This document shows, piece by piece, positions 7,394 to 21,226 of a stretch of DNA of 45,654 bases. Origin of the DNA: Mariprofundaceae bacterium (GTDB lineage: Bacteria; Pseudomonadota; Zetaproteobacteria; Mariprofundales; Mariprofundaceae); contig JAUZRG010000092.1 in the NCBI GenBank assembly GCA_030950585.1, positions 1-45,654 of the forward strand, written 5' to 3'. The position numbers were made by a program, and so were the translations under genes. Positions within the stretch are counted from its first letter, which is position 1; each line of letters opens with the position of its first letter. Below the pieces are notes generated by a model, which was given only the letters and a program-made list of their open reading frames with translations, was not told the DNA's origin and ran no database searches.

Positions 7394-10300
7394 TTACTCA
7401 CGGCGTTGGCCTGCAAATCTAACAAGTGCAATCATCAAGAAAGCCAATAACCAAAACCATGTATTGTTGTTGGACTCTGCGGGTAATAAACAACCTTTAC
7501 CGGGTGGTTGGATGAACGGTGCAGCACCGACCACAGGGGTGACGGGGATATTGTCGATGGCAACGGAGACAGGATCAACAATCACACCATTGGCCACACC
7601 ATCTAAATCGGTGAGTGGATCGCCATCGGTCAAGGTCATGTCGATGGTGTTGCCATTAACGGTGACCCATGTTGATGCAGGTAGGGCAATATAGTTACCA
7701 CCCATATCGACTTTGAATAACTTCACGGTGCCTGCAAGTGGGGAGGAGAAGGTCAAGCGGATGGTGGTGCTTTGACCCACTGCAACCGTGGTTGCATACG
7801 ATAGGTTGCCGTAAGGGAAGCTATAGGTGCTGATGGGTGCGTTTACACCCAGTGGGGCGTAAGCCACTTGGGTTAATGTTTGGCCTGCACTGTAAATATC
7901 CACGGTGCCATTGACGATATTCATGCCTTTGGCAATGGCTGCGTTGTTGGCATTGTTGCCAGCTTCCAATACATCGGGGAGACCATCTAAATCGGTGTCG
8001 GTGGGGGCGTTAACATTGCCAATTTCAACCCAATCCAGAATGCCATCACCATCACTGTCTAAGGTGTTGCTGTAAGGATCAATGCCGATTGCAAGTGATT
8101 GGGAAAAGCTTAAGCCTGTACCTGAAGGTGCAAGTATGTTGGCTGCTCCAGCGATAAAGGCTGAGACGGTCACGGTGCTAGTGGCTGAGCCTGTGTTGTT
8201 GGCTGAATCGGTGGCCGCATAGGTCACGGTGGTTGTGCCCACAGGGAAGGTGGCTGGCGCATTGTGGGTCACCGTGGTGTAAGGATCGACATCATCCACA
8301 GCTGTAGCACTGGCTAAGATGAGTTTCAAAATAGCGAGCGTTGCGGCTGTACCATTGGCGGAACCTGCACTCACCGTGATGTTGTTGGGTGCTGTCACCA
8401 CTGGCGGGGTTTGATTGATGAAAGGATCAACACGAATATTGGCTGTTGCGCTGGATGCATTTTGTTGATTATCCACACTGTTGAATGTAATCACGGTTGT
8501 GCCCACAACAAAAAGTTGGGGGGCATTGTTGCTGAGGCTTGGCTTGGGATCCATGTTGTCCACAGTGGTGGCTGCATTTAAAAAAGCGGCAATGGTTGGG
8601 TTGGTGATGCTGGTACCTGTGGCTGTGGTGGAGGCAACATAAATATCAACAGGTAAGTTGATGGTTGGCGCAAACACATCCATATAAGGTGAGATGACAA
8701 CCGTACCCACGGCAACGCCAGTGTTGCCCGCAATATCGGTGGCATAAAAATCAATGGGTGTCGCTCCGACTTGGAAAAGGGTCGGTGGGTTGATGGCATT
8801 AACGGTGACAGAAGGATCAAGGTTGTCGGTGGCTGTACCGGCGTTGATAAAGGCCGCAATGCTCACATGTGTGGCGGGTGTACCTGCGATTGAAACCGCT
8901 GGCAGTGTTAAGGTATTGGGTGCTTGAACCACAGGTGCGATGGTATCGACAAAAGCCAATACTGTGACCGTGGCGGGTAGTAAGCTTTGGTTGGTCATGG
9001 CATCGGTGGCATAAAAATCAACGATGGTGGCTCCGATAGGAAAACGCACAGGTGCGGTGTTCATCACTGTCAGGTTGCCATCGACATTATCCAAGGCAGT
9101 CGCCGTATTAAAAAAGGCGGTGAGCGAGGCATCATTGGCTAAGGTGCCATAAGAATCAATGGCAGCAATGGTGATGTTGGCGGGCACGGTCAAGACAGGT
9201 GCAACATGATCGATATAAGCAAGCACAGTCACATTGGCTGTGGCACTGCTTAGGTTGTTGGCTGCATCGGTGGCTTGGAAAGTCACAGCGGTGGTGCTTC
9301 CTGCTGCAAAGAGGGTGGGTGCATTATAAGGCGAGGCTGCCAAGGCACCATCGACATTATCAAGCGCGCTTGCGCCATTGAAAAAGGCGGTAATATAAGG
9401 ATCGGTCGCAAGGGTTCCTGTGGGAGATGCTGCGGTGACGCTAATGGCTTGGGGCAAGGTTAATATGGGAGCAATCACATCAATATAGGCTGCAATGGTG
9501 ATATTGGCGGTTGCTGTGCCGAGATTGCCCACCGCATCGGTGGCATGAAAGCTGATCGGTGTAACCGTACCAGCAGCAAACAAGGTGGGAGCATTGTATG
9601 GCGAAGCAGCCAAGACACCATCAATATTATCAAGTGCAGTGGCAGCATTTAAAAAGGTTGTGATATAAGGGTCTGTTGCCAGTGTGCCTGTTGGGTTTGT
9701 GGCTGCGACCGTGATCGCTAGCGGGGGACTGACAACAGGGGCTCTGGTGTCGGAACTCACAACCACCAGACTGCTTGCAAAACCAGCGTTGCCAGTTTTG
9801 TCGGTGGCGATGAAATTCACTAACGTGCTGCCAATCGGAAAAAGAGCTGGGGCATTATAAGGTGAAACGGCTAAACCAATATCGACATCATCGAGGGCAC
9901 TGGCTGTTGCAAAACGCGCGACAATACGGGGATCTGTGGCACTCAAACCATTCGTGTTGTTCAAGGTAACATAAAGATCAATGGGGGCCGTGACCACGGG
10001 AGCGGTGACATCAATCCAGCGGGTGACATCTAACGGGTAGGCATCAATAGTGAGGGCACTAGCAGCGATTTGTGCTGTGCTGGCATTGGGGTTCCAGTTA
10101 TCAGGGTGACCATCGGCATCGGTATCAAGTGAGGCAGCTGGATCAAGGTTAAAGGCATCGACATGGGTTAAGCCTGTGGTTGAGTTCGCGGCACTCATGC
10201 CAAAAGTCCAGTTATTGGGAAAATGATCATTGTCGCTATCCAAACTGGCTGCGATATCGGTGGGAAAGGCATCGCTGGCATCAGATACTTGATCACCATC

Positions 10301-12391
10301 GGTGTCGATGTTCGTGGATGCTGTGCCTGTGAGATAGGTTTGGATGGTATAAGCTGTATTGGCAGCTTTGGTGGTGTTGGATACCGCAATGAAATACGTG
10401 CCTGCACTTGGGGTTAAAATACTGATGCGTTCCATACCATCGCTGCGTGCTGACGTTAGGGTGTAGGCATCTTGGGCAGGGCGACTGCCAAATTTAGCAC
10501 TTAAATCAATATTGGCTGCGGATGTGGTGGCAATCACGAGTTCGGGCATATTGGTAGGAACTTGCACATGAAAATAATGCACATCGTCTTGGCCATCGAG
10601 TTGAATGGTATTTTGTGTCACACGGCCATCGCTCATTAAACCACCGATTTCAATTTCAAATGGGCGTGTGACGGTGTAATTGGTGGCATTGATGGTGAGG
10701 CTAAGGGGTAGGCGATAATGCTGGCTTAAGTTGGCGGCTAAACTCAAATTGAAAGCTGTCGCTGAAGCTGTGTTGGCACCTGTGGCTAAATTGGGATAAG
10801 TCACGGTGGGATTGTTGATGGTCACATTTAGGTCTGCACTGCTTAAGGTCGCTGAAATCACCGTGGTATTTTGCCAGATGTTTTCAAGGTCAACCCATAA
10901 ATTAACTGTTTCACCTGCATCCAATTGGCCATTGTTGTTGGCAGCCAAATCATCAATGCGGACTTGGCGAATGACGAGCACAGGTTGCGTGACCACACTT
11001 AAAGCGCCTGTGGCATCGGCATGGCCACCTGTGGCTGTGAGGCCTTTGCGTGATGTCGTGAGTTGATTGGCGGCTAAGCCTGCGGCGGCCATGATACGGC
11101 CTTTCATTTCTTGGGCTGTGGCGGCGGGATTAAAGGTTTTGATCAAGCCAGCAATACCTGCCACATAAGGTGCAGACATTGAGCTACCATTCATAAAACC
11201 ATAGCTTAAACCGTTTTGTTTGTTGTTGGCATAGAGTGCAGAAGTCGCGGGGTGCAGGGTGGTGTAGATAGACGTTCCTGGTGCGGCAAGGTCAACAGAA
11301 GAAAGACCAAATTGGCTCCATGTGCTTAAATTGTTGTTGGCTGTAGAAGCGGCAACACTCAAGATATTGTTTAAATCATAAGAAGAAGGGTAATCGGCCG
11401 TATCATCATTGTTGTTCTCATTGTTGCCAGCAGCGGCAACAACTAAAATACCTGCGGCTTGCAAGCGTGTGAAGGCAGCGAGTTCAGCTTGAGAAAACTG
11501 TCCTCCACCAAAACTAATATTAACAATGGTGACCCCTTGTGCGATGGCATAATCAATGGCGGCAATTTCACTGGCAACATCCAGACTGATGCGCAAAGGC
11601 ATGATGCGTGTTGTCCAGTTTACGCCTGCAATACCAAGACCATTATTACCCACAGCACCAATCACACCAGCCACAGCCGTACCATGACCATCGCCATAAA
11701 TATCGACACCAGAAGGATCAGCATCATTGGCATAAAAATCCCAGCCATGAATATCATCAATAAAGCCATTCAGATCATTATCAAGGCCATCACCAGCAAC
11801 TTCAGTGGGACTCAGCCAAATGTTGGCGGCTAAATCAGGGTGAAGCATATCAACACCATCATCTAAAACGGCAATGACGACTGCTGTACTACCTGTGTTG
11901 TTGGCCCAAGCGGTGGGCAACTTCATATCCACACCCACAGTGCCATTAAATGCTGCGCCGACTTCACTATAGGCATCATTGATCAATTGGCCTGTGTTGG
12001 ATAAGGCCCATTGTTGGTTAAATAAGGGGTCAGTAGGCAATAGGCTAGGGTAGCGTTGGTAATTGGGTTCGGCATAGCTGATATTGCCTAAGGCAATCAG
12101 CTGATTAATAATCGTTTGAAGGTTGCTATTGGCAGGAAGTTTCCATTTTTCTAAGCCTGTGACACTTGAAAGAACACTCGCATTGGCTTGCAGGGTAGTC
12201 TGCAATAAAAGACGTTGTTGTGCGGTTGCTTGAACATTAAACTGTACCAGTAATTCGTCTGGAACATAGTTTTGAACATTGTTGAGCACAGCAGCATGTG
12301 TTTGGTAGGCGAATAAAAAGCAGAAAAGAATAGAAAAACAAATGTTTTTTGTTGTGAGTAATAGAGATGAAGCAGCTTGCCACGGTCGCAT
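7394..12391 (-). CDS. Secreted subtilisin-like (S8) serine protease with HYR-like repeats and C-terminal anchor
   Basis: A 1665-residue exported protein. Order: signal peptide (1-33, ending THA); inhibitory propeptide with a PDELLVQF start; S8 catalytic domain with Asp near 177 (AVLDDGVD), His near 236 (DGHGTAVAG) and Ser near 402 (NGSSMSAPY); a pre-peptidase-like beta domain around 590-690; DxDxD calcium-type repeats around 695-790; seven HYR-like beta-sandwich repeats of about 88 residues (about 790-1412); a thrombospondin-3-like DSDGDGILD segment; a choice-of-anchor-U-like domain (LTDGDPLTDLDGVANGVIVDP); then GKGCLLPAE, one transmembrane helix and RRE. That tail is a Cys-containing sorting signal of the CTERM kind, so the protein is probably surface-displayed. 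A GGGG ribosome site precedes the ATG. Confidence 0.88.
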   Translation of the reverse strand: MRPWQAASSLLLTTKNICFSILFCFLFAYQTHAAVLNNVQNYVPDELLVQFNVQATAQQRLLLQTTLQANASVLSSVTGLEKWKLPANSNLQTIINQLIALGNISYAEPNYQRYPSLLPTDPLFNQQWALSNTGQLINDAYSEVGAAFNGTVGVDMKLPTAWANNTGSTAVVIAVLDDGVDMLHPDLAANIWLSPTEVAGDGLDNDLNGFIDDIHGWDFYANDADPSGVDIYGDGHGTAVAGVIGAVGNNGLGIAGVNWTTRIMPLRISLDVASEIAAIDYAIAQGVTIVNISFGGGQFSQAELAAFTRLQAAGILVVAAAGNNENNNDDTADYPSSYDLNNILSVAASTANNNLSTWSQFGLSSVDLAAPGTSIYTTLHPATSALYANNKQNGLSYGFMNGSSMSAPYVAGIAGLIKTFNPAATAQEMKGRIMAAAGLAANQLTTSRKGLTATGGHADATGALSVVTQPVLVIRQVRIDDLAANNNGQLDAGETVNLWVDLENIWQNTTVISATLSSADLNVTINNPTVTYPNLATGANTASATAFNLSLAANLSQHYRLPLSLTINATNYTVTRPFEIEIGGLMSDGRVTQNTIQLDGQDDVHYFHVQVPTNMPELVIATTSAANIDLSAKFGSRPAQDAYTLTSARSDGMERISILTPSAGTYFIAVSNTTKAANTAYTIQTYLTGTASTNIDTDGDQVSDASDAFPTDIAASLDSDNDHFPNNWTFGMSAANSTTGLTHVDAFNLDPAASLDTDADGHPDNWNPNASTAQIAASALTIDAYPLDVTRWIDVTAPVVTAPIDLYVTLNNTNGLSATDPRIVARFATASALDDVDIGLAVSPYNAPALFPIGSTLVNFIATDKTGNAGFASSLVVVSSDTRAPVVSPPLAITVAATNPTGTLATDPYITTFLNAATALDNIDGVLAASPYNAPTLFAAGTVTPISFHATDAVGNLGTATANITIAAYIDVIAPILTLPQAISVTAASPTGTLATDPYITAFFNGASALDNVDGALAASPYNAPTLFAAGSTTAVTFQATDAANNLSSATANVTVLAYIDHVAPVLTVPANITIAAIDSYGTLANDASLTAFFNTATALDNVDGNLTVMNTAPVRFPIGATIVDFYATDAMTNQSLLPATVTVLAFVDTIAPVVQAPNTLTLPAVSIAGTPATHVSIAAFINAGTATDNLDPSVTVNAINPPTLFQVGATPIDFYATDIAGNTGVAVGTVVISPYMDVFAPTINLPVDIYVASTTATGTSITNPTIAAFLNAATTVDNMDPKPSLSNNAPQLFVVGTTVITFNSVDNQQNASSATANIRVDPFINQTPPVVTAPNNITVSAGSANGTAATLAILKLILASATAVDDVDPYTTVTHNAPATFPVGTTTVTYAATDSANNTGSATSTVTVSAFIAGAANILAPSGTGLSFSQSLAIGIDPYSNTLDSDGDGILDWVEIGNVNAPTDTDLDGLPDVLEAGNNANNAAIAKGMNIVNGTVDIYSAGQTLTQVAYAPLGVNAPISTYSFPYGNLSYATTVAVGQSTTIRLTFSSPLAGTVKLFKVDMGGNYIALPASTWVTVNGNTIDMTLTDGDPLTDLDGVANGVIVDPVSVAIDNIPVTPVVGAAPFIQPPGKGCLLPAESNNNTWFWLLAFLMIALVRFAGQRRE
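8150..10010 (-). repeat. Seven tandem HYR-like repeat units within the protease gene
   Basis: Seven units of roughly 260-265 bp encode beta-sandwich repeats. Each begins with a [AP]PVVxxP-like strand and contains a TALDNxD segment and a FxATDxxGN segment. Units 2 and 3 are nearly identical in protein (TGTLATDPYIT..., SPYNAPTLFAAG) and clearly similar in DNA (around 9310-9440 and 9590-9700), pointing to recent duplication. Such units act as stalks or adhesive modules on secreted bacterial proteins. Confidence 0.8.
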
Positions 12392-14278: not shown

Positions 14279-17200
14279 TTATTGCATGGGAACTTTCAAT
14301 CGGTAGTGATCATAAAAGTCGAGTTCACCTTTTCTAAAGTCACGCAAGGCACGACCTTCTGAGAAATGCCAAAAAAGTTGTAGGGCGATGCTGCTTTGAT
14401 TTTGGTTAAAGTCATGCGTGAAGCTTAATACCCATGTTAATATGTCAAGATTATCATGCCAAGTTAAGCCATTTAGCGTCACATTAATTTGATGGTTGGT
14501 ATAGGATTTGGCTCTGTTTTTATCTGCACGAAACCAACGCCATTGATACTGTGCTTTGGCTTGCATATCCCCTAAAATTTGATGCCACGACAAACGCAAG
14601 CCCAAGTGATCAGGGTTGAGCAGAAAAAGGTTTTCATTGGAAGTGATAAAGGCATGTGCTTTGAACTGGCTATCCAACCAAGGTTGATAGCGCCAAGTAT
14701 CGGATAACTTCAGGCCATAGAGATGATTGGCTTTGTAGAGGCTAAACACATCACGGTCACTATTGGGGCGGGGTTGATTGAGGTGGCTGAGGTAACGGCC
14801 AAAGAGACTGAACTTAATGCGTTGGCTGTTGTTTTCATCCCATTTTTGTTGATAACTCAAGCCGAGTTGAGTGGTGGCTGACCATGCGGGTTGTTGAAAG
14901 AAACTTGTGCCGCGTAATTCAAGTTGGACGGGCCATGCCAATGCAGTGTAGTTCAATTGACCTTTAAGGCCGAGCACCGAAGCTGTACTATGAGGTCGAA
15001 TAAGCATGGTTTCTTTTTGGTATAAGCGGCGATCCTCATCATAAAAACGATGGCTTAATGATAGCTCTGGAAAAGAGCCCCCTTTGTTTTTCTGGGTGAT
15101 ATCTTCTTGTTGTAGGTTTTGATTGATCCATGCAAGACCTAGACTCCAAGTGCCATCTTCTTGGCCGCCCAATTCAAAATTATTTTGAGGGATGTGCTGT
15201 TGTTGCGTGCTCTTTTTGAGTTTAAGCAAGTTTTGCGCGGCTTGAGGGCTTGGTGGGGCTTTGATGATGTGGATGCTGGTGGGGTTTGTCTCAACTTTTG
15301 GCATCAATTGATAAATACGATACAAGGCATGATCGGATGTGGTGCTGAGTTCTATGTCGTGCCAACCTTCAGACACGGCATGGTATTGGCTATGGGTTCG
15401 ACCTTTTTTGTAAAGGTCTATGCGTAACCATTGCGGGCCGCGCATATTGAGATGAATGGACTCATCGGCTGTGGCAACATGGTAAAGGCGTTCATATTGA
15501 TTGGGAATAAGTTTTAGTTGGCCTTTTTGTTGCTCATATACGGTGATTTGAGAAAATTGATTGGGTATAGGGTTGTGGATACCGACCCGAAAAGATTGCT
15601 CTCCTGTGGGAATATGAATGCGCTGACTGCCGTGCTGAAGTACTTTGTCGTTGTCATGGATATCATGGTATTCTAAATCTTGCGCTTGTGCTGGGATAAA
15701 TTCAGGCTGTGTATGCTGACTTTTAACGATGAATGTTTTGGCTCGGTAATTGCGCATGGCAAAGCCTTGTTGGGCATAGCCAAAAATCATAAAGTGTTGA
15801 TCAGAACTCACAGGCATCAACACTTTGCGAATCGCTAAGGCTGGGCTTTCAGGTTTCCAGCCTTGATGGCTGATGCGATGTAAGCCTGCACTTTGTTGCA
15901 CATGTGAAAGTCGCTTCCAATGCCAAGTTTGCTTGAGCCTAGAGATGAGTAGGCTGGACTCATGAAAGTTTGGGTAAGATTTTGCCAAAGCCAAGGCTTG
16001 AACACGTTCTTTTTCTTGTTCGCTTGATTGATGTTCGATACGCCACAGTAATTCGGTTATTTGTTGGCGAATATCGGTTTTATGCGCATGGATGACAGCA
16101 CCATGCTGCCATATGACACCTTCTTGTGTGGGTTCTGGTTTGAGATATACCCGATGACCTGCTTGTGCTTTGTTAGCCGCATGCTTGAGCAAGTCTTGAA
16201 ATGGTGTTTGGGCTGAGGGCTTGGCTATGGCAAGAGGAGATATGATTTCTGTGCTGGGTAATAAAGTGATGCAAGCAGTATGCACACAGGGTTGCCGTGC
16301 TGTGTTCGTCGGGGTTTGCAGAGCTTGTTGTAATGTCTGGCGCGAAAGTGGTGCCAAGACTGAGAGGGGAATATCCGCTTGTTGGCTGAAGATGCCGATC
16401 AACATATCATGTTGTTGGGCTTGCACACGAATCTGATGTAAGCCTGCACCAACATCATAATATATGTGCTCTTGTTGCCCGACTTGTGTTTGAGGGGAGC
16501 CGATGACGTTGAAGAGTTGGCTGGCTTGGTTGTTGGCAATCAGGACATGCGTTTGTTGGTCTTTTTCTTCAATGCTTAACCAATCATTGAGTGGCTCTTG
16601 TTGCGCCTGTGTGTGAATGGGTCTTATTTTTAACCAAAGACGTTTGGGACCCATCACCGTAAAAATCAATGGCGTTTGGCTAGTGGCGCGCACGTTGCTT
16701 ATGATTTTGCCTGTGAGCTTGTTTTGCATGCTCTGTGTGCCTGCAAAACCTTCTATGATGTTGTGTTCTTCTTTCCAGACCTTGAGATCTGGCTGTGACC
16801 ATGTCTCCCATTGTTCTAATATTTTATAGCTGCTTTTCAAATGCGCATGTTGCATTTCATGGCTAATCTTTTGACCTGACTTGAGACTTGTGATGAATGC
16901 TTGACCATCGCGCCCTGCTTGCTGCCAAAATTGAATGGCTAAGTCATACTTTCCTTGGTCTTGAGCGCGCAGTCCACGCCACAATGCCGCATTGTGTGCG
17001 GGCATACGGTTTAGGGTGTCGTTAAAGACTTGCCACCAATGCAGGTGCCAAGCGGCACGCATCAGTTGATCTGTTTGACGTTGGGCGGCTGGTAAGGCCA
17101 GTTGCAGCATCATAACTTTGCGGTATTGACCTTGGTTGAGCCACGCCTGACTCAATGCCAAAGCATGTTGAATACTAGGGTCTCGCATGAAAGCCACCGC

Positions 17201-19543
17201 ACTCAGGCGTGTGAGGGCAGCGGGTTGATGTTGATAGCGTTGTTGTAATAAGCTCAAGGCAGCCTGTTGCTCTGCTTCATTGCCGTATAAGAAGAGACCC
17301 TTCATGCGTTTTTCTGCCAAATAAGGTTCATTGAGGCGTTGCAAGAGGTGAATGCTTTTACGCTCAGCTTCTAGCTTGTATTGCGTGGTTTTTGCTAATT
17401 TCCGCCAGTTTTCAAGGGCTAATAGCCATTGATTATCCTGTTCAAGTTCGAGGGCTTGTTGATAAAGGTGATTCCAATCCATGCGAGCGATTATGGTGGG
17501 TCGTGGTGGCGCGATATGTCTTTGAAATGCCTTATTCTGTTCTTGCAGTTCATGGCCAAGCATGAACCATGCATTGTATAAATCAGATTCAGCAGCATGG
17601 CTGGGCTTTGTGTTTTGTTGTAAAAAAGATGCAAAGGTAGAAAGCCCTTGTTTAGTTAGCTGACTCATGGCTTCTCGGTAGTTTGATTCAGACATCTGAA
17701 AAGCTTTGCTTACACGGTATTGGATGGCCACACGCGCTGCCTTGTCTTGTGGTGACCATAACTGAATGCGTTGTACATGAGGCGGCAATGCCACTTCAAT
17801 GATGGCAACTTCTCTTAGGGGTAGCGGTGTTCTTTTTGAGCCAAATGGAGCGGCTAGGGTGGAGGGGGTTGAAAATTGTTTGGCCAAAATGGCAAGACCA
17901 GCTTCACTCATACTGGGTTGGTGTGCATAGCTGGGCGCTTGGGGGTCTAAATGCAATGCTCTGCTTTCTTGGTCATCAAGGCGTAAAAAATATTGATGAT
18001 CTTGTGGGCTGTGTGGGTTTATTTCGACCACGATACGTAAAACCGACATGGCCATACGCTGGCCTAGCTCGTAGCTCTGCGCGTTCTTTTGGGTGCTTGA
18101 TAGCGGGTAAAAGGTGCTTTTATTCAAACGTTTTAAAAGGTCGTCATGTTGGCGCATATCCACCACAAGATTTTGTTCTTCTCGTTTCAGAGGAGCCAAG
18201 TGGGTAGTATGAAAATAAGCTGTTTCCACTTTGCCTGTGGGGTTAGTCTGAGGGTGTAAGGTGCGATAAAAGCTATGCCGACCAAACAATTGTTGTGCCA
18301 CCGTTTGGATTTGTGGGGCACCTTGGCGAGCCTTGGCAGCTTCTTGCATGATTTGGGCAGCGATTAATGCACCGTCGCTGTAGCGGTTGTTGCGCACAAG
18401 GTGAAAGGCCGCTTGTTCGCGTTGTGTGGCCTGCTTTGGGGCATGATTGCTTAATTGAGTGAGCGCATTTTGATGAAGTCGCCAATGTGAGGCGAGGGCA
18501 TCGCTTGTGCTGTATGGATCGTGAAAGGTTTCGTTTAAGGCTGGGGGTGCATTGAGGTCAGGAAACAACCATGCATCATCTTCTTGTTTTAATAAGCGCA
18601 ATAACACGGCTTGGTTGGATGCAATGCCTAGTTGGTGTTTCCCTTTGGGTAATTCAAAAAAAGATTGTTGCTGTTCGCCTGTTAAGATGACTTTGTTATT
18701 GGCATAGAGAACTTTGATGCGTTCAGAGGCTGTGGATAAATCCAAGACACGCCAAGGCTTTTGATCAAGGTATAAGGTGATGCGGTAGTCTTGATCAATG
18801 CCTGCTTCGTGGTCGGAAAAGACCAAACGACTTTGCAGCATAAAGCGGCTTCCGTGTTGGGAGATAGTTTTTTTTTCGTGTGCATTGAGTCGCCAAAAGC
18901 TTTGTTGTTTCTTATTGAACTGCTCTTCAAGTAAAAGGGATGATGAGTCGAGCGGAATGAGTTCGCGATAAAGCTGTTGCTGACGATCAAGGATGGGGCG
19001 TGATATAAAGAGAGCAATCTCAATGCCTTTGGCGGCTGTTTTTGGGCAATGAATTTTGGCGATCCAATCGTGTTGGCTGTTGTATTGGTAGTGTGAATCG
19101 TGGTCTTGATTCTGGTCTTGATTCTGGTCTTGATGCTGGGCTTGATGCTGGGCTTGATGCTGGGCTTGATGCTGGGCTTGATGCTGGGCTTGGAGCTTGA
19201 TAAAGAGTGATTGACCATGTGAGGCAAAGACTTGGATGTCTGCGTCTTGAAGCTGCTCATCTTCATGGTGCAGGCGTAACATTTGTTGTTTGGCTAAGCG
19301 CACATAAGTGGATTCACCTGCTTCTAGGTGGATGGTGTGCATGCCCCATGCTGTATTGTATGTTGGTTCCTGTTGACTGCTCAAAGCTTGTTGATTTTCA
19401 ATATTATCCCAACGCCATGCAGGGCCTTGGCGTGTTTCAAGCAAGTGTAGTTGCAGTTCATCCAGTTGGGCATAAGCGATATGACTATGGGGAAAACTAG
19501 AGCCCAACAAGAAAATAAGAATAATCCATGATTTTATAGACAT
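14279..19543 (-). CDS. Giant exported protein with TPR-like helices and predicted C-terminal beta-barrel
   Basis: A 1754-residue protein I cannot assign. A signal peptide (1-25, ending AYA) leads into beta-rich N-terminal domains interrupted by a Gln-rich QAQH/QDQN tandem repeat (about 115-147). A helical TPR-like region spans about 690-870 (LYQQALELEQDNQWLLALENW, QGQYRKVMML, QDQGKYDLAIQFW). More beta-sandwich-like segments follow to about 1460. The last about 290 residues show alternating hydrophobic/polar strands rich in Tyr, Trp and Leu, like a 12-16-strand outer-membrane barrel. TPR plus barrel recalls exopolysaccharide porins such as PgaA, BcsC or PelB, but no glycosyltransferase is nearby. 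Its start overlaps the preceding gene by ten bases. Confidence 0.65.
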   Translation of the reverse strand: MSIKSWIILIFLLGSSFPHSHIAYAQLDELQLHLLETRQGPAWRWDNIENQQALSSQQEPTYNTAWGMHTIHLEAGESTYVRLAKQQMLRLHHEDEQLQDADIQVFASHGQSLFIKLQAQHQAQHQAQHQAQHQAQHQDQNQDQNQDHDSHYQYNSQHDWIAKIHCPKTAAKGIEIALFISRPILDRQQQLYRELIPLDSSSLLLEEQFNKKQQSFWRLNAHEKKTISQHGSRFMLQSRLVFSDHEAGIDQDYRITLYLDQKPWRVLDLSTASERIKVLYANNKVILTGEQQQSFFELPKGKHQLGIASNQAVLLRLLKQEDDAWLFPDLNAPPALNETFHDPYSTSDALASHWRLHQNALTQLSNHAPKQATQREQAAFHLVRNNRYSDGALIAAQIMQEAAKARQGAPQIQTVAQQLFGRHSFYRTLHPQTNPTGKVETAYFHTTHLAPLKREEQNLVVDMRQHDDLLKRLNKSTFYPLSSTQKNAQSYELGQRMAMSVLRIVVEINPHSPQDHQYFLRLDDQESRALHLDPQAPSYAHQPSMSEAGLAILAKQFSTPSTLAAPFGSKRTPLPLREVAIIEVALPPHVQRIQLWSPQDKAARVAIQYRVSKAFQMSESNYREAMSQLTKQGLSTFASFLQQNTKPSHAAESDLYNAWFMLGHELQEQNKAFQRHIAPPRPTIIARMDWNHLYQQALELEQDNQWLLALENWRKLAKTTQYKLEAERKSIHLLQRLNEPYLAEKRMKGLFLYGNEAEQQAALSLLQQRYQHQPAALTRLSAVAFMRDPSIQHALALSQAWLNQGQYRKVMMLQLALPAAQRQTDQLMRAAWHLHWWQVFNDTLNRMPAHNAALWRGLRAQDQGKYDLAIQFWQQAGRDGQAFITSLKSGQKISHEMQHAHLKSSYKILEQWETWSQPDLKVWKEEHNIIEGFAGTQSMQNKLTGKIISNVRATSQTPLIFTVMGPKRLWLKIRPIHTQAQQEPLNDWLSIEEKDQQTHVLIANNQASQLFNVIGSPQTQVGQQEHIYYDVGAGLHQIRVQAQQHDMLIGIFSQQADIPLSVLAPLSRQTLQQALQTPTNTARQPCVHTACITLLPSTEIISPLAIAKPSAQTPFQDLLKHAANKAQAGHRVYLKPEPTQEGVIWQHGAVIHAHKTDIRQQITELLWRIEHQSSEQEKERVQALALAKSYPNFHESSLLISRLKQTWHWKRLSHVQQSAGLHRISHQGWKPESPALAIRKVLMPVSSDQHFMIFGYAQQGFAMRNYRAKTFIVKSQHTQPEFIPAQAQDLEYHDIHDNDKVLQHGSQRIHIPTGEQSFRVGIHNPIPNQFSQITVYEQQKGQLKLIPNQYERLYHVATADESIHLNMRGPQWLRIDLYKKGRTHSQYHAVSEGWHDIELSTTSDHALYRIYQLMPKVETNPTSIHIIKAPPSPQAAQNLLKLKKSTQQQHIPQNNFELGGQEDGTWSLGLAWINQNLQQEDITQKNKGGSFPELSLSHRFYDEDRRLYQKETMLIRPHSTASVLGLKGQLNYTALAWPVQLELRGTSFFQQPAWSATTQLGLSYQQKWDENNSQRIKFSLFGRYLSHLNQPRPNSDRDVFSLYKANHLYGLKLSDTWRYQPWLDSQFKAHAFITSNENLFLLNPDHLGLRLSWHQILGDMQAKAQYQWRWFRADKNRAKSYTNHQINVTLNGLTWHDNLDILTWVLSFTHDFNQNQSSIALQLFWHFSEGRALRDFRKGELDFYDHYRLKVPMQ
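19102..19197 (-). repeat. In-frame 12-bp tandem repeat, about eight units
   Basis: On the plus strand the units read GGTCTTGATTCT (two), GGTCTTGATGCT (one) and GGGCTTGATGCT (four), followed by a degenerate eighth copy. In protein the array gives QAQH units grading into QDQN units. A 12-bp period keeps the frame whatever the copy number, so the count may vary between strains. Confidence 0.9.
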
Positions 19544-20391
19544 TGTAATAACGCATGTTGCATATCGGTGTTGTGGCGCAGTGTTTTACGGGTTTCAAAA
19601 CTCATTTCTAAATGAATAAAGCTATGATGGCGTTGCTGGACGATATACTTTGCAATGACGTTGGTGGTGCCACCTAGCTCTTGCACATCAGTGGGGTAGA
19701 TTAAGATAGATTGTGTTTGATCTCTTTTGAGGCAATGCGCCAAGTTTTGCAAAGTTCGGCTGGGGTATTGTTGACCGCTACTGAGTATCATGTCGGCTTG
19801 TTGCGCGCTGATGCTTTGACGTTTTTTTTGGGAAAACCCATGCAGTTGCAAGGTTTTACCTTGCGGGTATGCTTGTATAAAAGCATGGCTAAAGGCTGTG
19901 AAGAAGGTGTTGTCTCGGTGGGCTAAGTCAGCATCAACCCTTTCAGAGTCGGCAAAGTAGTGGCGTGGCACGGTATTCCAAGCAGCTGCTTTGGCATGGC
20001 TCTTTTGAAATAGTTTTAAGGCTATGCGGCCTGTGTGCAAATCTTTGAAGGCATGCGGTGCTTGCAGAAGCAGTGCATGGTTTTCCTCTGAACGAATAGC
20101 AAAAAAACCACGACCATGATATTGATTGTTTTGTTCTTGAATGACAATGAAAGCTTGTCCTTTTTTGTGAAGGTATTTGACTTTCATACCCAAACTTTCC
20201 CATGCCTCTGGGTTGCTGTTGTTGTTTGTGAATAGGTCGAAGAAAAGCTGTGTTGCTTGTTCAACTTGGTATTGGCTGGGTTGAACAAAGACACCTTGGC
20301 GGCTTTCTTTCCAAGTTTGGTTTAAGCTATCGGCATGAACCCATGATAAAGGGCATAAACACAAGATAAGAAAACACAGTATTTGAATCAT
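19534..20391 (-). CDS. Periplasmic protein of unknown function (first gene of exported cassette)
   Basis: A 285-residue protein with a clear signal peptide (MIQILCFLILCLCPLSWVHA, then DSL). The mature part is a mixed alpha/beta domain with conserved-looking RHYFADSERVDADLAHRDN, LQLHGFSQKKR and LEMSFETRKTLR segments. The last, with its charged residues at the C-terminus, is reminiscent of hydrolases that act on peptidoglycan or poly-glutamate, but I cannot identify a family. The ATG at 20391 is chosen for the GGGGAG just upstream. An in-frame TTG six codons earlier (20409) is less likely. Its 3' end overlaps the 1754-residue gene, so they are translationally coupled. Confidence 0.65.
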   Translation of the reverse strand: MIQILCFLILCLCPLSWVHADSLNQTWKESRQGVFVQPSQYQVEQATQLFFDLFTNNNSNPEAWESLGMKVKYLHKKGQAFIVIQEQNNQYHGRGFFAIRSEENHALLLQAPHAFKDLHTGRIALKLFQKSHAKAAAWNTVPRHYFADSERVDADLAHRDNTFFTAFSHAFIQAYPQGKTLQLHGFSQKKRQSISAQQADMILSSGQQYPSRTLQNLAHCLKRDQTQSILIYPTDVQELGGTTNVIAKYIVQQRHHSFIHLEMSFETRKTLRHNTDMQHALLQCL

Positions 20392-20488
20392 AAGTCTCCC
20401 CAGTAACAATCGCTATACTGAAGCTTTGATCATGAAATTAAAACTGAAATAAGATTAAAAACGTCATCATTAAAAAAGAATCATGAAC

Positions 20489-20518
20489 TTGTCATCTTTC
20501 TTAAAGCTTCGGTTTATA
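20489..20518 (+). promoter_or_regulatory. Predicted promoter of the 20-residue microprotein gene
   Basis: TTGTCA (20489-20494) and TTTATA (20513-20518) are spaced by 18 bases, placing a start near 20525 and a leader of about 30 bases before the small reading frame. It lies in the 256-bp gap from 20410 to 20665 and is divergent from the exported cassette. The A-rich stretch 20410-20480 shows no other clear signal. Confidence 0.4.
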
Positions 20519-20554
20519 GCTTCTCACCTATCATACAGAGAGAGGAACTTGATT

Positions 20555-20617
20555 ATGAACGAACATTGCCCAGATTGCGGATACCACGATTCAGAAGGTT
20601 GTCAGTGTCCACACTAA
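20555..20617 (+). CDS. 20-residue Cys/His-rich microprotein
   Basis: A complete ATG-to-TAA frame of 20 codons holds four cysteines as CPDC (5-8) and CQC (16-18), plus His4, His11 and a C-terminal CPH. The spacing CxxC...CxC with His looks like a miniature zinc or copper knuckle. An AGAGAGAGG ribosome site lies nine bases upstream, a plausible promoter precedes it and a hairpin with a seven-T tail follows, so the whole unit is gene-like despite its size. No function can be assigned. It could instead be a leader peptide or part of a small RNA, but the ribosome site and terminator favour a translated metal-binding peptide. Confidence 0.55.
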   Translation: MNEHCPDCGYHDSEGCQCPH

Positions 20618-20639
20618 GAAAACGGTAAGACTCATTTCA

Positions 20640-20667
20640 AGCAGGGCTTTTAAGCGCTGCTTTTTTT
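20640..20667 (+). terminator. Terminator after the microprotein gene
   Basis: An eight-base stem with one mismatch (AGCAGGGC with GCGCTGCT) and a six-base loop is followed by seven Ts. It lies 22 bases after the microprotein stop on the plus strand and touches the stop of the convergent lipoprotein gene. Confidence 0.7.
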
Positions 20668-21226
20668 ATTCTGTGCTATGGATCAAGATAAGCGGTTTAT
20701 CCCATAAGAACAAAGGGATTTCTGTTGTGGAACTCAGGCGTGCAAGTTGTGCGTTGCTGAGTTTACCCAAAACGATTGATTTTTCTTCTACCTTTCCTTC
20801 TAAGTGACCTTTTTCAATGAGTGACTTTATTCTATCAGCATCAGGTAACCAGATGAGAATATGATCACCATCATTTTCAATTCTTGCCCAAAGGTAATTT
20901 GCTCCTTTCTTGGCATCTTCTTCACGCACACTGACCATCTTCCATGTGCCTACTTTGCGCACAAATGCTTTGACAATTTGCATGCTAAAGTTCTTTTTCC
21001 CACCTTCTTCAATCCATGCTAAGCGCAAAATACCTTGGCTACGACTCACCACATGCACATGTAAAGCACCTTCAGGGTGTGTCCAAACCCCATCCCAATC
21101 AGCGCGTTTTAACTTGACAGGTTCGCTGCCGACTTGTTGGATGCTCATCACACTATGACAAGCTGTTAAGATGAATAGAAGGCTTAGAAAAAGGCTTGTT
21201 TTGATGAAGATACGTTTAAAATTCAT
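20666..21226 (-). CDS. Lipoprotein of unknown function
   Basis: A 186-residue protein with a type II signal peptide: KR, a hydrophobic stretch and the lipobox LTAC, giving lipidated Cys23. The mature part (VKLKRADWDGVWTHPEGALHVHVV...) is a beta-rich domain without known catalytic motifs, and I do not recognise a family. The residue after Cys is His rather than Asp, so transport to the outer membrane is expected. It lies downstream of hisF on the same strand with a 67-base gap and converges on the microprotein gene. Confidence 0.75.
   Translation of the reverse strand: MNFKRIFIKTSLFLSLLFILTACHSVMSIQQVGSEPVKLKRADWDGVWTHPEGALHVHVVSRSQGILRLAWIEEGGKKNFSMQIVKAFVRKVGTWKMVSVREEDAKKGANYLWARIENDGDHILIWLPDADRIKSLIEKGHLEGKVEEKSIVLGKLSNAQLARLSSTTEIPLFLWDKPLILIHSTE

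Follow-up and report, generated by a model that had tools for sequence, protein, structure and literature searches.

A 256-base gap between two minus-strand genes contains, on the plus strand, a 20-codon frame, a ribosome site and an orphan terminator, Table 1. We read these features, with a probability of roughly 45%, as a small independent plus-strand unit whose RNA encodes, as a miniature messenger, a 20-residue peptide that is young or restricted to one lineage. The window, i.e. the complete stretch of 45,654 nucleotides analysed here, belongs to an assembly of 2.5 Mb. The HisF of this assembly has its best match, 83%, in a MAG of the Zetaproteobacteria, with Ghiorsea and Mariprofundus next. 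Transcription would start somewhere in 20410-20554 and would end at the intrinsic terminator. The RNA would carry one good ribosome site and, in its middle, the 20-codon frame, so the unit is most likely a miniature messenger.

Table 1. Features of the plus-strand unit and its two flanking genes (positions in the window).
Feature	Position	Strand	Description
291-aa neighbour gene	19534..20409	-	divergent from the 20-codon frame; no Pfam family
Promoter-like pair TTGTCA, 18 nt, TTTATA	20489..20518	+	weak, unsupported
Ribosome site AGAGGA	20541..20546	+	8-9 nt 5' of ATG 20555
20-codon frame MNEHCPDCGYHDSEGCQCPH	20555..20617	+	ATG start, stop TAA
Intrinsic terminator, hairpin and T7	20639..20667	+	no same-strand gene upstream for 14,366 nt
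186-aa neighbour gene	20666..21226	-	convergent with the 20-codon frame; stop codon overlaps the T tract of the terminator

The T-tailed terminator of the original prediction is borne out when the hairpin is compared with shuffled sequences and with other hairpins of the genome. Its stem covers 20639-20662 with one mismatch and is followed by seven T, and it ranks second among the hairpins of the window, both strands taken together. A simple terminator scan missed it, presumably as its stem contains a mismatch. We defined a class of hairpins with -12 kcal/mol or better and at least seven T in eight positions, and collected its members from a sample of 445,654 bases (the window plus twenty 20-kb stretches from the same genome), where genes were called crudely as the longest non-overlapping frames. 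The sample contains 20 such hairpins, and 16 of them are located at most 120 nt after a same-strand stop codon. Two of the other four are inside called genes, one is found at 212 nt and also closes a gene on the opposite strand, and the last is the hairpin studied here. The intergenic part of the sample (~41 kb) holds 18 members of the class, whereas 60 shuffles average 0.17. Of 2000 shuffled versions of the local piece, 2 contain a plus-strand member. When the limits are relaxed to -10 and 6 T, the whole window has 2 hairpins versus a shuffle mean of 2.8, therefore the strength of this one matters. Since an orphan terminator belongs here to a class that closes same-strand genes, a separate plus-strand transcript of less than about 230 nt, ending at 20639-20667, is likely. 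Downstream of the terminator, up to 23405, all genes are on the minus strand.

The predicted promoter-like pair, on the other side of the frame, is at chance level. After the TTGTCA at 20489 there is either TTTATA (3/6) at 18 nt or TATAGC (4/6) at 20 nt. The best plus-strand total is 8/12, which is equalled or beaten by 94% of 500 shuffles, and a promoter scan did not find a plus-strand site. Just 5' of the frame, at 20501-20523 on the plus strand, two near-identical 10-mers, TTAAAGCTTC and TTATAGCTTC, are placed 13 nt apart. The pair is possibly an operator and possibly due to chance.

The ribosome site fares better and is as good as originally claimed. Its duplex energy is -6.3 kcal/mol, and a site at least as strong is found for 36% of 313 called genes versus 4.8% of 1976 random ATGs, i.e. 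the frame has a gene-like ribosome site. The frame itself is complete, as predicted, and contains the motif CPDC-N7-CQC-PH with four Cys and three His in total. It is open farther upstream to an ATG at 20483, which would give a 44-aa form, and at this start no ribosome site is present (duplex energy +0.3 kcal/mol). The ribosome site and the layout make it plausible that the 20 codons are translated.

The codon usage was scored against intergenic DNA. The frame obtains -0.37 bits per codon, a value exceeded by 99.6% of 1555 gene pieces, and another reading frame over the same bases scores higher (0.115). Part of this low score comes from the Cys codons, whose frequency is low in genes (1.2%) and higher among intergenic triplets (3.8%). 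The codon score speaks against an ordinary gene, weakly so with 19 codons.

We also estimated how often the combination of features arises by chance. In the 445,654 bases there are five cases of a ribosome site followed by 12-45 codons and, within 80 nt, a terminator; 12 shuffles have one to six each (mean 2.7). When at least four Cys are demanded there is one case in the sample and one in the 12 shuffles pooled. The generic combination is not rare, so that the case depends on the terminator together with a frame of ~8% chance. The latter is an estimate of how often a frame of such size with such a ribosome site would be present by chance in such a gap, and it is based on the 37 of 730 small intergenic frames with such a ribosome site and on about 49 kb of intergenic DNA.

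No credible relative of the 20-mer was found in 150 genomes, 73 of them from the same family (best E besides self 0.0375), in 398 genomes of the phylum, where the best hit is the same match, or in 385 genomes of another class (best E 0.042). Three weak matches (G018, E 0.0375; G569, E 0.042; G705, E 0.0437) were rejected, as they coincide with long ordinary frames and are read in a different frame or on the opposite strand. The remaining weak matches of the 150-genome search were judged by the local translation in one frame, for the minus strand not always the matching one. When all frames of the weak-match loci from this search were scanned for CXXC-N6-8-CXC, the window alone had the motif. 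The 20-mer has no match in plasmids, and three matches in phages have E-values of 8-9. The 44-aa form gave seven matches besides its own in 80 genomes, all with E above 0.03, and the DNA of the unit gave short matches only in 78 genomes, several of them to the terminator part.

The original prediction proposed a motif search in related genomes, and no relative of the 20-mer was seen with CXXC-N6-8-CXC at the weak-match loci or with CPXCG-N6-CXC in the 150 genomes. The codon pattern CXXC-N7-CXC is found at 46 places in its own genome versus 26 for a reversed control, so the motif by itself is unremarkable. CPXCG-N6-CXC occurs at 17 places in 15 of the 150 genomes (4 of 74 within the family); the stop-to-stop frames of these places were inspected and none resembling the 20-mer was seen. 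In viral contigs the exact peptide pattern has no occurrence. The pattern HCPXCGYH has 11 there, and no second Cys pair at this spacing was seen at these places, one of which ends at the locus edge (L167) and one of which was viewed in part (L166).

To calibrate the searches we used a 20-residue piece of a 57-aa protein as a control. Among 78 genomes, the piece detected a match in 31 (E <= 0.05) and the whole protein in 32 (E <= 0.001); both counts include the own genome. The piece recovered 30 of 31 known carriers; relatives of the 20-mer with ~50% identity or more would therefore have shown up.

Synteny with relatives is lacking for both neighbours. The relatives of the 291-aa neighbour in three genomes (G009, G027, G034) overlap an upstream same-strand gene, without a matching gap, and for the 186-aa neighbour a search of 60 other genomes gave a single weak match (E 3e-4). 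The start of the latter protein is lipoprotein-like. The locus is not common to the relatives, and the unit would be restricted to one lineage or young. The "self-contained gene" of the original prediction very likely stands as a small transcription unit, through the orphan terminator, while its translation gains no comparative support, as no homologue of the peptide, the DNA or the locus was found.

Two further genes of the window, both on the minus strand, encode large proteins. The 291-aa gene overlaps the gene of a 1754-aa protein (14279-19543), and the two form one minus-strand cluster. The 1754-aa protein has a tandem run of QHQA/QNQD units close to its start and no Pfam family at significance. 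Farther away, at 7394-12391 on the same strand, a 1665-aa protein of the subtilase family contains HYR and PPC domains.

The terminator argues for a transcript and not for a peptide, and the unit might instead be a small non-coding RNA, about 140-200 nt long, acting by base-pairing and ending at the terminator, with the frame arising from an ATG that by chance follows a purine-rich stretch. This agrees with a codon score that is not gene-like and with a protein homologue being absent from the 150, 398 and 385 genomes. However, the ribosome site is gene-like and correctly spaced, DNA homologues are limited to short pieces, and no Rfam match reaches threshold, the best being sbrA with 20.7 bits versus 45, mainly over the terminator. 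Further, 20527-20667 folds no better than shuffles do (z -0.58). With a fold at shuffle level and no Rfam family at threshold, positive evidence for a structured RNA is therefore lacking, and we consider a small RNA somewhat unlikely. A proto-gene, i.e. a random young frame that is transcribed, perhaps translated, and without function, is unlikely. It would explain the restriction to one lineage and the codons, and in Enterobacteriaceae intergenic small frames with translation signals are mostly without a sign of selection, according to the accessible part of PMC11188072. On the other hand, the ribosome site and the terminator are each well formed, and four Cys in 19 codons would be drawn from intergenic triplets with a probability of 0.005, a value for a motif chosen after being seen.

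Very unlikely is that there is no plus-strand unit at all and that the hairpin belongs to the 186-aa gene on the minus strand, as part of its 3' end, with the T7 on the plus strand as a coincidence. The hairpin starts directly after the stop codon of this gene, and two-way hairpins do occur in the genome (L182 11499, L189 5627), but the minus side continues as GAAATGAG, without a T tract, and the plus orientation belongs to the class that marks same-strand 3' ends.

If the unit is a miniature messenger, its peptide can be compared with known systems. In family scans against Pfam, NCBIfam and PDB sequences the peptide had no match reaching cut-off; below the threshold there are matches to HVO_0649 (E 0.094, 12.6 bits versus a cut-off of 70) and to 6ydh, labelled DUF1610 domain-containing protein (E 0.17). 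Attenuator leader peptides are tiny frames with repeated residues of one kind, located between a ribosome site and a terminator. The 20-codon frame is alike in size, in the repeated residue and in this layout, but no same-strand gene follows the terminator and the next gene is convergent.

The four Cys in CPDCG and CQC make metal binding plausible. The peptide, if made, would present four thiolates (Cys5, 8, 16 and 18) and His residues close to them as ligands for a single ion of the Zn(II) or Fe(II) kind, and might have a role such as minor metal buffering or partner binding. It resembles the C(P)XCG zinc-finger micro-proteins of haloarchaea (HVO_0649, HVO_0758, HVO_2753; PMC11241148) in being tiny, in its CPXCG and in its four Cys. 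In the accessible part of that report these micro-proteins are defined by two C(P)XCG motifs, whereas the 20-mer has one CPDCG and a CQCPH as its second pair; neither does it show above-threshold similarity to the family. The same part lists no C(P)XCG protein under 30 aa in H. volcanii, and the 20-mer, with 20 aa, is shorter than every one of them. It also reports zinc in 9 of 14 purified C(P)XCG proteins, therefore even true members need a test. A second group, the ismORFs, are small intergenic frames of bacteria (PMC11188072), and the 20-codon frame is like them in being intergenic, within the range of 15-70 codons, and limited to a lineage. According to the available text they are called by purifying selection and are mostly hydrophobic, unlike the 20-mer, a polar peptide with many Cys and His.

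It is rather improbable that the locus encodes, in its own transcription unit, a stand-alone 20-residue metal-binding peptide of a single Zetaproteobacteria-like lineage, with a minimal one-metal site as the whole protein. If the peptide were made and bound metal, the size limit of stand-alone metal-site proteins would be lowered, and such genes could arise within one lineage.

Other orphan terminators of the sample were collected as intergenic hairpins of -10 or better without a same-strand gene within 120 nt, giving nine cases including 20639-20667. For two of them, L183 + 18224 and L182 + 11499, frames with a ribosome site are found, of 57 and 50 codons, ending 32 and 21 nt before the terminator, respectively; at the other six a clear independent small gene was not seen. 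The L183 frame (18018-18188 on the plus strand, G000:C160:38018-38188) encodes an unlisted 57-residue Cys-bearing protein, MNIDQHLKVAQ..., with a ribosome site and its own terminator. It is present in 31 of 77 other genomes with 58-77% identity, and has no Pfam family. As this frame is conserved, an orphan terminator can, although not always, reveal a real tiny gene, and since the test led to such a protein, orphan intrinsic terminators could be used as pointers to list overlooked small genes in this class. The L182 terminator (11499-11523, plus strand) is two-way with the 50-codon frame on its plus side; this frame has a ribosome site of -7.1 kcal/mol, and its start is hydrophobic and signal-like, its end acidic and rich in Ser.
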